NCBI GenBank assembly: GCA_009912575.1
Contig: WNDP01000026.1
Location: 1 to 38,207 of the forward strand
From: Acinetobacter bereziniae
GTDB taxonomy: Bacteria > Pseudomonadota > Gammaproteobacteria > Pseudomonadales > Moraxellaceae
Reading direction: 5' to 3'
DNA: 38,207 bases
The position numbers were made by a program, and so were the translations under genes. The number at the start of each line of letters is the position of its first letter. Positions within the stretch are counted from its first letter, which is position 1. This document shows positions 13,598 through 17,796 of this stretch, piece after piece. Under the pieces are notes generated by a model that had not been told where the DNA came from, searched no databases, and worked only from the letters and a program-made list of their open reading frames with translations.

Positions 13598-14866
13598 ATG
13601 CATATCATCATCATGGGCGCAGGTGTTATTGGTACAACATCGGCATATTATCTCAAACAAGCAGGTCATGAGGTCACTGTAATTGACCGTCAACCGAATG
13701 TAGCACTTGAAACAAGTTTTGCGAATGCTGGGCAAGTTTCACCAGGCTATGCATCACCTTGGGCTGCTCCCGGTATTCCATTGAAAGCATTTAAATGGAT
13801 GTTTCAACCACATTCGCCGCTCGCCATTAAATTAACTGGTGATATGTACCAATACCAATGGATGGTACAAATGTTGGCTGAATGCAATATCAATCGCTAT
13901 CAAATCAATAAAGAAAGGATGGTGAGAATTTCAGAGTATAGCCGTGATTGCTTAGATGAATTGCGTGCAGAAACCCAAATTCATTTTGATGAGCGTCAAC
14001 TTGGGACATTGCAACTGTTTCGTAAACAGCAACAATTAGATGTTGCAGGCAAAGATACCGAAGTTTTAAAGCATGAAGGTGTGCCATTTGAGTTGTTGGA
14101 CAAAGCAGGTGTCATTAAAGCAGAGCCTGCATTGGCACATGCGACTGTTGATTTTGTTGGTGGTTTGCGCTTGCCCAATGATCAAACAGGGGATTGCCAA
14201 AAATTTACCACAGAATTAGCAGAACTCGCTGCACAGCAAGGTGTAAATTTTCTTTTTAATACCGTGATCGAAACAATTGAAAAAGATTCAGATCGAATTA
14301 CAGCCATTAAGCTTAAAGATGGCAGCACATTGAAAGGTGATGTCTATGTAATGGCCTTGGGAAGTTATAGTCATGAGATGTTAAAACAACTCAATATTGA
14401 TGCACCTGTATATCCATTAAAAGGCTATTCGATCACCACAAAAATTATTGATCCAACACTATCACCGATCTCCACGATCTTAGATGAATCTTATAAAATT
14501 GCTTTAACACGTTTTGATGACCGTATTCGAGTTGGAGGAATGGCTGAAATTAATGGTTTTGATCGTTCTTTAAAATCAAGTCGTGAAGATACCTTGCTGA
14601 TGGTACTCCAGCAATTGTTTCCAAATGCCAGTGATATTAGCGATGCTCATTTTTGGACGGGTCTAAGACCAGCAACTCCTGATGGCACACCAATTGTTGG
14701 TAAAACCAAGTATCAAAACTTATATACCAATACTGGACATGGCACATTGGGTTGGACCATGTCTTGCGGTTCAGCAAAACTACTCTCCGATATTATTTCA
14801 GGAACAACACCACAAATTGAGTACGATGATTTGAACGTGTTTAGGTATGAAGGTGTCAATGCTTAA
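13598..14866 (+). CDS. dadA: FAD-dependent D-amino-acid dehydrogenase, copy 1
   Basis: A 422-residue DAO-fold flavoenzyme: N-terminal Rossmann motif [13 protein letters not shown] with VIDRQ, then [22 protein letters not shown], typical of Dad[10 protein letters not shown] in the substrate domain, and the C-terminal FAD segment [15 protein letters not shown]...[17 protein letters not shown]. DadA deaminates D-alanine and other D-amino acids at the inner membrane, passing electrons to the respiratory chain. It usually sits with the racemase dadX, but none is seen here. It has a paralogue at 16552. The ATG at 13598 starts directly at the beta strand of the Rossmann fold, as in the family. Confidence 0.93.
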
Positions 14867-14916: not shown

Positions 14917-15611
14917 ATGGATCAATCACCAGCATACATTATGGGTGACTCGACATTGATAAATCAAAATATATTGGCAAGTGAAATATCTTTCGATCAA
15001 GCACACTTTTGGCACTGGTTTATACGTACTATGCGTGGCTTTGATGAACAAAAAGAACTGAATTTAGACGAAGCGATGAGATAACAGGCTTGGATTTGTA
15101 TAGCACGCAAATCAGTGAATGGACTGAATCTTTTTTGCCAACACATTTGAATTTACAGGGGAGAAATTACCATTTGGTGATCACTCCTAATCTCTATATT
15201 GATATTCAGTTTACTCATGAAGAGATGAACTATTATCTCAATGATCTGTATATCGGCAATATTGGCAGGCATTTTGAGGCATGGTTTTTTAGTTTTAAAG
15301 AGTTGCAACGCTTGCAATTAACGGATTTAGATTTCTTATTGTTGCTGCCGATGCTTGCTGTTGAACAGAATCAGTCAAAGGTTGTCACAGAACTGATTGC
15401 TCAATGTTTATCGAATATAAAATCTTTTCAAGGCCATGAAGATTATATTGCAAGCTGTGTAGTGAATGGCTTGACCATTCAGGATGATTTTTATCTGGAT
15501 GAATCAGTTGGGGTGTGTAATCAACAAAATCATAGTATACGTAATTTGCAACAACATCTTGATGATAGGGAGCATATCCAAAAGTTAAATGAACTGTTAA
15601 ATACAATCTAA
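14917..15611 (+). pseudogene. unknown gene, apparently split by a frameshift
   Basis: A first frame (14917-15084) encodes 55 residues from ATG (MDQSPAYIMGDST...FDQAHFWHWFIRTMRGFDEQ). It stops at 15082-15084, and a second frame, open from about 15048 and formally startable at TTG 15090, encodes up to 173 residues (LDLYSTQISEWTESFL ... HIQKLNELLNTI). The second lacks a good start, and the two join smoothly with one extra base near 15075-15090, giving a soluble protein of about 225 residues rich in aromatic and acidic residues. I do not recognise it. Fold and size are reminiscent of small stand-alone cytoplasmic proteins such as immunity proteins, which is only an impression. It lies between two dadA paralogues. 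Confidence 0.6.
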
Positions 15612-15729: not shown

Positions 15730-16218
15730 ATGAATGCGTTAAAAGTTTTACGTTTTGCTGTAGATGGTATTGCTGTAATCGCAAATACTCAGAATCATCA
15801 GATTCAACATTTATTAGATAATTTTTCAGCTTATGCCTATGAATCAGAATTTGAAAGAATAATGTATTTTTCCGCGACTGATTTATACGTAGAGTTAAAA
15901 TTGGATGCGTCACATATACAATTGTTGGTCAACTCGTGGGCAGGTGAGACTTATACACAATGCAATATGAGTGTAGAACTCAGTGAAGCATTGGTTTCCG
16001 AAAGTGGTGTTGCGTTGATTCTAACTGAGCAAGATATTGATGAAGCCATTTGGTTGGAGCACTTATATGCTGAAAATATGGCTGAACTCGATGTGGCATT
16101 AACCCAAATTGAGCAAGCTGCACAATTAGAACAAAATAGCATTCAAGCCTATATTTTAAGATTTTTGACTGAGGAAGATAAACAACAGTTTTTAGCTGAT
16201 TTTGGTAAATCAGAATAA
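15730..16218 (+). CDS. conserved-looking acidic protein of unknown function
   Basis: A 162-residue cytoplasmic protein starting MNALKVLRFAVDGIAV. It is acidic, with alternating strand-like segments in the first 80 residues (VIANTQ, YFSATDLYVELKLD, IQLLVNSW) and a helical C-terminal half (DEAIWLEHLYAENMAELDVAL ... FLTEEDKQQFLADFGKSE). No signal peptide, membrane segment or catalytic motif is seen. Codon use resembles the neighbours. It is just upstream of the glycine riboswitch and follows the split unknown gene, so the pair may be a small functional unit between the two dehydrogenases. I do not recognise a family. Confidence 0.75.
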   Translation: MNALKVLRFAVDGIAVIANTQNHQIQHLLDNFSAYAYESEFERIMYFSATDLYVELKLDASHIQLLVNSWAGETYTQCNMSVELSEALVSESGVALILTEQDIDEAIWLEHLYAENMAELDVALTQIEQAAQLEQNSIQAYILRFLTEEDKQQFLADFGKSE

Positions 16219-16256
16219 TTTTTACTATTCATTACCGCAAAAGTGTATCTATTTTA

Positions 16257-16284
16257 TTCAAAATGGCATATACATTGCTATATA
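16257..16284 (+). promoter_or_regulatory. candidate promoter for the riboswitch transcript
   Basis: TTCAAA (16257-16262) and TATATA (16279-16284) are separated by 16 bp. A start near 16290 would put the first aptamer at the very 5' end, as expected. Confidence 0.4.
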
Positions 16285-16295
16285 AAAGGAAAGAT

Positions 16296-16501
16296 AACTG
16301 CAGGAGAGAAGTCTCTTGTAGACTCGCCGAAGGAGCAACGACCCCGGAAACTCTCAGGCAAAAGGACTGTAGTTATTGTAAAACCTCTGGAGAGAAGTCA
16401 TTCTATTGAAAATAAAAAAGAAATGGCTCACCGAAGGGGAAGGTAAAACCTAAATAGTTTAGGTCTTTATCGAAGCTCTCAGGTACACATGACAGATGGG
16501 G
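16296..16501 (+). promoter_or_regulatory. tandem glycine riboswitch
   Basis: Two complete aptamers are present. Aptamer 1 (16296-16374): P1 AACTGCAG pairs with CTGTAGTT, enclosing GGAGAGA, GCCGAAGGAGCAA and CCGGAAACTCTCAGGCAAAAGGAC (core CTCTCAGGCAAAAGGAC). Aptamer 2 (about 16384-16501): CTCTGGAGAGAA, CACCGAAGGGGAAGG, a P3 stem ACCTAAA-TAG-TTTAGGT and CTCTCAGGTACACATGACAG. These are the hallmark conserved cores of the gcvT-type glycine RNA. The regulated gene starts at 16552. Just downstream, CATAC (16502-16506) could pair with GTATG (16550-16554) over the start codon, which would allow control of translation. No terminator lies between aptamer and gene, so translational control is likelier. 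The element normally turns expression on with glycine. Confidence 0.97.
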
Positions 16502-16551
16502 CATACATTGACAATGTAATGAAAAGAATCGCATTTCAAAGGAGTGTGCGT

Positions 16552-17796
16552 ATGTGTCATGTTGTCGTTATTGGTTCGGGTATTACAGGTGTAACCTCTG
16601 CCTACGAACTTGCTCAATTAGGTTATCAAGTAACTGTTATTGATAAACATTTATTTCCTGCTATGGAAACCTCATTTGCCAATGGCGGACAACTATCTGC
16701 GTGTAATGCAGAAGTATGGAATCAAAAGTCTACGGTACTCAAAGGCATTAAATGGATGGCAAAAAAAGATGCCCCATTATTGCTCAATCCAGCATTTGAT
16801 TTGCATAAATATGCTTGGCTGGTTGAGTTTTTAGGCAATATCAAGCACTATGAAGCCAATACTCAAGACACGGTCAGAATGGCACTGTTAGCACGTCAAA
16901 GACTTTTCAATATTGCTGAGCAAGAAGGCATTGATTTCGACCTAGAAAAACGTGGGATTTTGCACTTCTATCATTCTGAGTATGATTATAAAGTGGCAAC
17001 CAGTGTCAATGCACTGTTGTGTAAAGGTGGTTTAGAGCGTCATGCAGTGACAAATGCAGAAATTAAAACCATTGAACCAAGCTTAACTGGCAAATATTAC
17101 GGTGGTTTTTATTGTCCAGGTGATGCAACAGGTGATATTCATAAGTTTACGACAGGTCTCGCTAAAGCCACTGAAAAATATGGGGTAAAATATTTATTTG
17201 GCATGGAAGTCGTGAATGTTGAGCACACTGCAAATGGCGTTAATATTCAATACCATCCAAGTGTTGAAAATATGGAAGGTCATTCAGTTGCTATAGAACA
17301 ACTGAGTGCTGATGCAGTGGTGATCTGTGGCGGAGTCGGCAGTTATCAATTAGCCAACCAACTTGGTGATCGTGTGAATGTTTATCCTGTAAAAGGTTAT
17401 TCAATCACTGTACAGCTTGATGATGAACAAAGTATCAATGGTGCACCTTGGGTCAGCTTGCTCGATGAAAGTGCAAAAATTGTGACTTCGCGATTGGGAG
17501 CAAATCGTTTGCGTATTGCTGGGACAGCAGAGTTTAATGGTTATAACCGTGATATTCGTTCTGATCGTATCCAGCCTTTAAAGGATTGGGTCAATAAAAA
17601 CTTTGATATATCGACAGAGCATTGCGTGCCTTGGGCAGGGTTACGTCCAATGATGCCAAATATGATGCCTGTAGTAAAACGAGGTAAACGTGAACGTGTA
17701 TTCTATAACACTGGACATGGGCATTTGGGTTGGACTTTATCAGCTGCAACTGCAGTTATGATCAGCCAAGAAATTGCCAATTCACATCCTTTATAA
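16552..17796 (+). CDS. FAD-dependent D-amino-acid dehydrogenase paralogue under glycine riboswitch control
   Basis: A 414-residue DAO-fold flavoprotein: GSGITGVTSAYEL Rossmann motif with VIDKH, ETSFANGGQLSACNAEVW, LERRGIL-like DLEKRGILHFY, PGDATGDIHKFT, KGYSITVQL and C-terminal LRPMMPNMMPVV...NTGHGHLGWTLSAATA. It belongs to the DadA family but is clearly distinct from the copy at 13598. AAAGGAG lies seven bases before the ATG at 16552; the in-frame ATG at 16489 is inside aptamer 2 and is rejected. The known reaction is oxidative deamination of small D-amino acids. Glycine control suggests glycine itself may be the substrate (giving glyoxylate and ammonia), or that glycine signals a D-amino-acid surplus. 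A hairpin follows the stop. Confidence 0.92.
   Translation: MCHVVVIGSGITGVTSAYELAQLGYQVTVIDKHLFPAMETSFANGGQLSACNAEVWNQKSTVLKGIKWMAKKDAPLLLNPAFDLHKYAWLVEFLGNIKHYEANTQDTVRMALLARQRLFNIAEQEGIDFDLEKRGILHFYHSEYDYKVATSVNALLCKGGLERHAVTNAEIKTIEPSLTGKYYGGFYCPGDATGDIHKFTTGLAKATEKYGVKYLFGMEVVNVEHTANGVNIQYHPSVENMEGHSVAIEQLSADAVVICGGVGSYQLANQLGDRVNVYPVKGYSITVQLDDEQSINGAPWVSLLDESAKIVTSRLGANRLRIAGTAEFNGYNRDIRSDRIQPLKDWVNKNFDISTEHCVPWAGLRPMMPNMMPVVKRGKRERVFYNTGHGHLGWTLSAATAVMISQEIANSHPL

Follow-up and report, generated by a model that had tools for sequence, protein, structure and literature searches.

A tandem glycine riboswitch ahead of a PRK12409-family flavoenzyme gene in Acinetobacter, and a proposed link to glycine oxidation

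Introduction

According to the accessible text of the published reports, glycine riboswitches control glycine cleavage (gcv) genes, transporters, serine genes and, in SAR11 bacteria, malate synthase (PMC2211319; PMC3766115; PMC9481103; PMC5069720). For contiguous glycine switches, the targets given in the part of a 2025 survey available to us are gcv, glyA and sdhA, with COG0665 under thiamine pyrophosphate only (PMC12452182). A. baumannii is listed with a glycine riboswitch, its target not being named in the accessible text (PMC9495176). The closest described system is the tandem RF00504 element before gcvTHP. Here we consider a 38,207-nucleotide stretch of Acinetobacter bereziniae DNA (contig WNDP01000026.1; hereafter the window), in which a tandem glycine riboswitch precedes a gene of the PRK12409 family. 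RNA family, tandem layout, catabolic target and a better conserved aptamer 1 are common to the two systems; however, the target is a cleavage system in the one and a flavoenzyme gene in the other. No report of this pairing was found in the open-access literature, subscription papers and supplements lying outside the search; the supplements of PMC3766115 (Burkholderia, Ralstonia, Rhizobiales) may list it.

The best explanation, to which we give a probability of roughly 0.7, is that glycine induces the encoded enzyme, which oxidises it to glyoxylate and takes the place of glycine cleavage; the substrate and the ON direction are the parts that we infer.

The riboswitch and its target gene

The central features of the locus are as follows.

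16291..16379, + strand: glycine aptamer 1, with consensus core (RF00504, 75.9 bits)
16377..16505, + strand: glycine aptamer 2, divergent, above the gathering score (RF00504, 47.2 bits)
16552..17796, + strand: PRK12409-family flavin adenine dinucleotide-dependent amino acid dehydrogenase, by NCBIfam profile; proposed glycine dehydrogenase/oxidase

A first, sequence-only reading of the window had proposed a tandem glycine riboswitch driving a paralogue of DadA. A covariance search bears out the riboswitch: two RF00504 matches adjoin on the same strand, both scoring above the gathering score of 32, and they are the sole ones found in the whole genome. The two aptamers overlap by three bases, and scans that drop overlapping matches of the same clan report aptamer 1 alone. 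The 3' end of the switch lies 46 nucleotides from the start of the gene. The claim that both cores are complete has to be qualified. Aptamer 1 keeps the consensus core in the RF00504 alignment; aptamer 2, judged by eye, departs from it (GGGG for GGAG, TGAC for GGAC, and A-T in place of G-C in P3), though it exceeds the threshold. Matches to bablM, mir-4003 and RalA were below threshold and were dismissed as chance.

The target is a flavoenzyme of the DadA family, as expected. Its 414-residue product passes the PRK12409 model (NF009074, named 'D-amino acid dehydrogenase') with 716.5 bits against a curated cut-off of 494, and fails both the classic DadA model PRK00711 (344.1 bits; cut-off 383) and the ThiO model TIGR02352 (116.8 bits; cut-off 250.8). 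The label of paralogue is also right, since the window encodes a classic DadA at 13598-14866, with which the PRK12409 protein shares 35% identity.

Switch and gene in Acinetobacter and relation to glycine cleavage

In a sample of 120 Acinetobacter genomes, including the source genome of the window, the riboswitch was found in 102 and PRK12409 above its cut-off in 103. Of the 104 riboswitch loci, 101, spread over 99 genomes, have the tandem switch directly 5' of PRK12409, always on the same strand and with 106-201 nucleotides between the end of aptamer 1 and the gene. Because the pair is present in 99 of the 120 genomes, it is beyond chance; the pairing is the rule in the genus, widespread and not peculiar to the window locus. 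The pair occurs twice in G034 and twice in G090; four genomes have PRK12409 without the switch (G001, G045, G065, G119), and 14 have neither.

The remaining three tandem switches stand directly 5' of gcvH-gcvP, so that all 104 loci precede either PRK12409 or gcvH and none precedes classic DadA. The three genomes with a switch and no PRK12409 above the cut-off (G015, G055, G092) are exactly those in which GcvP exceeds its cut-off, 117 of the 120 being without it. Thus, GcvP and the switch-PRK12409 pair are mutually exclusive across the sample, and none of the 99 genomes with the pair has GcvP above the cut-off. In G055, gcvT lies 3' of gcvH-gcvP. A fourth genome of this kind is G206 of the family draw, whose riboswitch and GcvP share contig and strand. 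In G055 and G092, gcv occupies a chromosomal site different from that of PRK12409 in G034 and G107. Because none of the window neighbours searched for (eno, ispD, rodA and others) lies within about 20 kb of these gcv copies, the loci are separate, and an in-place swap of targets behind one riboswitch was rejected.

Elsewhere in the family, the switch was found in 69 genomes. Among the 68 with coordinates listed, GcvP follows the switch on the same strand at a distance of 2.2-6.4 kb in 62, PRK12409 adjoins the switch in three (G130, G155, G164), and three have no GcvP above the cut-off (G213, G215, G219).

In G034 and G090, the second switch-PRK12409 pair is followed downstream by a malate synthase gene (glcB). 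In SAR11, a glycine switch precedes glcB itself, which likewise links it to glyoxylate use, and the accessible text calls this control exclusive to SAR11 (PMC2211319; PMC5069720); in the two Acinetobacter genomes, by contrast, glcB comes after the proposed glycine-oxidising gene and outside SAR11. By eye, the PRK12409-malate synthase spacer of G090 (L200, between 3351 and 3581, - strand) contains a small open reading frame, about 38 codons long, that includes a hydrophobic stretch, and no such frame was seen in the L199 spacer.

Some loci look damaged. Near PRK12409 of G119 (L068) a decayed 27-bit aptamer remains, and for L068 and A. celticus (L124) the conserved MMPN stretch of the enzyme has a gap of four residues; switch and gene may be undergoing joint decay. 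In G157 (L206, second draw), an intact-looking switch accompanies a broken PRK12409: its first 47 and last 70 residues alone are matched, and about 3 kb separates the two ends.

Distribution beyond the genus

PRK12409 exceeded the cut-off in eight of 369 genomes sampled from the class, the window's own included. Five of the other seven (G348, G403, G412, G465, G499) have the tandem switch 5' of the gene; in G595, an assembly in which no switch match was found, the start of the gene coincides with a contig edge, and G417 has no switch match either. GcvP is also above its cut-off in G348, G403, G465 and G595; it gives two partial matches in G412 and none in G499 and G417.

When named genomes were scanned with the profile, at least 585 relatives were confirmed, of which the best 80 were examined. 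These span the alpha-, beta- and gammaproteobacteria and comprise nine Acinetobacter, the genus of the nearest named relatives of the window gene, together with Bradyrhizobium, Phyllobacterium, relatives of Burkholderia, Achromobacter, relatives of Roseobacter and others. RF00504 lies above threshold directly upstream in 78 of the 80 (19, 19, 20 and 20 per 20), the two without a match being A. celticus and a Granulosicoccus (L157). A probable serine dehydratase gene follows PRK12409 at two of the 80 loci, and malate synthase does so at none of them. In a quick tree, the Acinetobacter genes (100) fall among those of betaproteobacteria; support is middling (84-93), and the placement suggests, without proving it, transfer.

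Function of the enzyme

The sequence-only reading had left two options, glycine as substrate or as a signal for D-amino-acid breakdown. The exclusion between the pair and GcvP, the malate synthase and probable serine dehydratase neighbours and the glycine oxidase folds now favour the substrate option, and the signal option has lost ground. The closest solved folds to the predicted enzyme are glycine oxidases (4ysh and 1ng3 among them), although identity to these and to ThiO is only 23%. It may work like a glycine oxidase, yet it is not filed as ThiO. A further likeness would lie with the hydrogen cyanide synthase HcnBC, a flavoprotein dehydrogenase acting on glycine. In the PRK12409 alignment, residues 363-373 of the window protein read GLRPMMPNMMP, with bulky methionines, against GLRPATPDG in classic DadA; these methionines may shape a small substrate pocket.

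An unlikely alternative is that the protein is a true D-amino-acid dehydrogenase and glycine a mere signal, for instance of the cell-wall stress caused by glycine competing with D-alanine. The NCBIfam name of PRK12409, the shared superfamily and identity with the classic DadA of the window, and the presence of D-arginine dehydrogenase among the fold matches would all agree with it. However, the protein scores under the classic DadA cut-off, and classic DadA itself lacks the riboswitch throughout the genus sample. The absence of GcvP from every pair genome and the malate synthase or serine dehydratase neighbours in four genomes also speak for glycine as the substrate.

If glycine is oxidised, the following sequence of events can be proposed. 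The sigma-54 RNA polymerase would initiate just 5' of aptamer 1. Abundant glycine would let the tandem aptamer fold and leave the ribosome-binding site accessible, and the resulting flavoenzyme would convert glycine to glyoxylate and ammonia, passing electrons either to a quinone, the respiratory mode proposed earlier, or to O2. Malate synthase would then consume the glyoxylate. Such a glycine-catabolic unit would replace the glycine cleavage system that is absent from most Acinetobacter. The wider picture, on which we are evenly divided, is that Acinetobacter acquired a ready-made cassette of riboswitch and glycine dehydrogenase, burning glycine via glyoxylate and malate synthase under the joint control of sigma-54 and glycine, and that this route, free of both glycine cleavage and tetrahydrofolate, is misnamed and widespread in Proteobacteria. 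In that case, many genes named 'D-amino-acid dehydrogenase' would encode glycine-degrading enzymes whose substrate is told by the riboswitch, the handling of glycine by Acinetobacter with so few GcvP genes would be explained, and the glycine riboswitch regulon would gain a glyoxylate-producing target.

The leader and the mode of control

Between aptamer 2 and the gene, three features bear on the mode of control.

16501..16506, + strand: GCATAC tail after P1 of aptamer 2, able to pair with 16544-16549 or, through CATAC (16502-16506), with 16550-16554
16520..16538, + strand: hairpin TGAAA/TTTCA directly 5' of the Shine-Dalgarno site, from pairing across leaders
16540..16544, + strand: Shine-Dalgarno site AGGAG, from the sequence

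Control of translation, proposed earlier from the pairing of CATAC with GTATG over the start codon, is plausible, because the stretch 16150-16600 yielded no terminator-like site. The particular helix fares less well. It can form, mostly with four pairs, in most genus leaders (86.6% of cells paired), but no compensatory changes were found across these leaders; this counts neither for nor against the helix, whose 3' side is formed by the start codon. In the window, the register GCAUAC/GUGUGC, between the Shine-Dalgarno site and the ATG, is stronger (-9.5 kcal/mol, a value reached by about one in 100 shuffles, whose mean is -4.4). As a general helix it was rejected, because over the genus as a whole it does not exceed shuffles. 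Among 35 distinct leaders, own energies are barely better than swapped ones (-7.9 vs -7.0), and constrained folding with P1 formed gives slightly more open sites in 47 of 54. For the TGAAA/TTTCA hairpin, 91.4% of cells are paired and nine are changed on both sides, all in one of the five pairs; its covariation score was reached by none of 500 shuffles, although kinship alone can lift sequences above shuffles without any structure.

Aptamer 1 outscores aptamer 2 in 29 of 29 named loci for which both are listed, overlapping second aptamers falling outside that listing. According to the accessible text of PMC6944388, a better aptamer 1 marks the glycine-cleavage type of switch, and since the scores fit this type we infer that the leader is a translational ON switch. 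The opposite, an enzyme that produces glycine from sarcosine or another N-alkylglycine and is turned off by it, is improbable. Sarcosine oxidases are indeed close among the fold matches, and transporter-type glycine switches are OFF switches in the same text (PMC6944388); yet the conservation of aptamer 1, the exchange with glycine cleavage and the malate synthase downstream in two genomes are at odds with it. Less probable still is a glycine-type aptamer of altered specificity binding another ligand: glycine-rejecting variants exist, according to the accessible text of PMC9481103, and aptamer 2 is divergent, but aptamer 1 has the consensus core, as does aptamer 1 of a gcvHPT operon of the genus.

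Promoter

16264..16278, + strand: sigma-54-type -24/-12 promoter element TGGCATATACATTGC, a pattern conserved in genus leaders

We take the sigma-54 consensus to be GG and GC ten bases apart, and name the element on that assumption; the transcript would then start at about 16290. Of 53 genus leaders (54 were taken, one being too short), 52 have the pattern [ACT]GG[CT]A-N6-TTGC 5-16 nucleotides 5' of aptamer 1, against 0.04 expected from mononucleotide shuffles. Three gcv leaders lack it but all have the bare GG-N10-GC (0.4 expected). Among the nine named Acinetobacter loci it is present at seven, including that of the laboratory species A. baylyi (DSM 14961; L126), which has both aptamers and the PRK12409 gene as well. 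In other genera it was found in one of five class leaders and one of 37 named leaders, the latter being those scored out of 71 named non-Acinetobacter loci (the core pattern missed 34). The genome of the window has rpoN, and RpoN turned up in each of the 10 genomes in which it was sought. No sigma-70-type promoter was found at 16150-16600. The search for a conserved sigma-54 activator site gave no general one; the palindromes that do recur, at most in 7 of the 32 representatives, look like terminators of the upstream gene.

Surroundings of the locus

13598-14866: classic DadA paralogue, by NCBIfam profile
15090-15611: Imm19-family immunity gene, by family match

In the window, the segment 13598-16218, holding classic DadA, the Imm19-family gene and an unknown gene of 162 residues, lies between a rodA-type gene and the riboswitch. 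At L204 and L205, a rodA match is the nearest window gene ahead of the switch-PRK12409 pair. In G465 (L077), one in-frame stop falls inside the PRK12409 match and an nhaA-I riboswitch lies nearby. In Phyllobacterium salinisoli, a cobalamin riboswitch (L134, 466-645, - strand) and the glycine riboswitch lie about 1 kb apart. Against the plasmid collection, the window is best matched by A. baumannii DNA, at 84% over 4.2 kb. Three A. baumannii replicons of about 4 Mb that carry the PRK12409 gene (NZ_CP104448, NZ_CP064203 and NZ_CP077849) are filed as plasmids and look like chromosomes.
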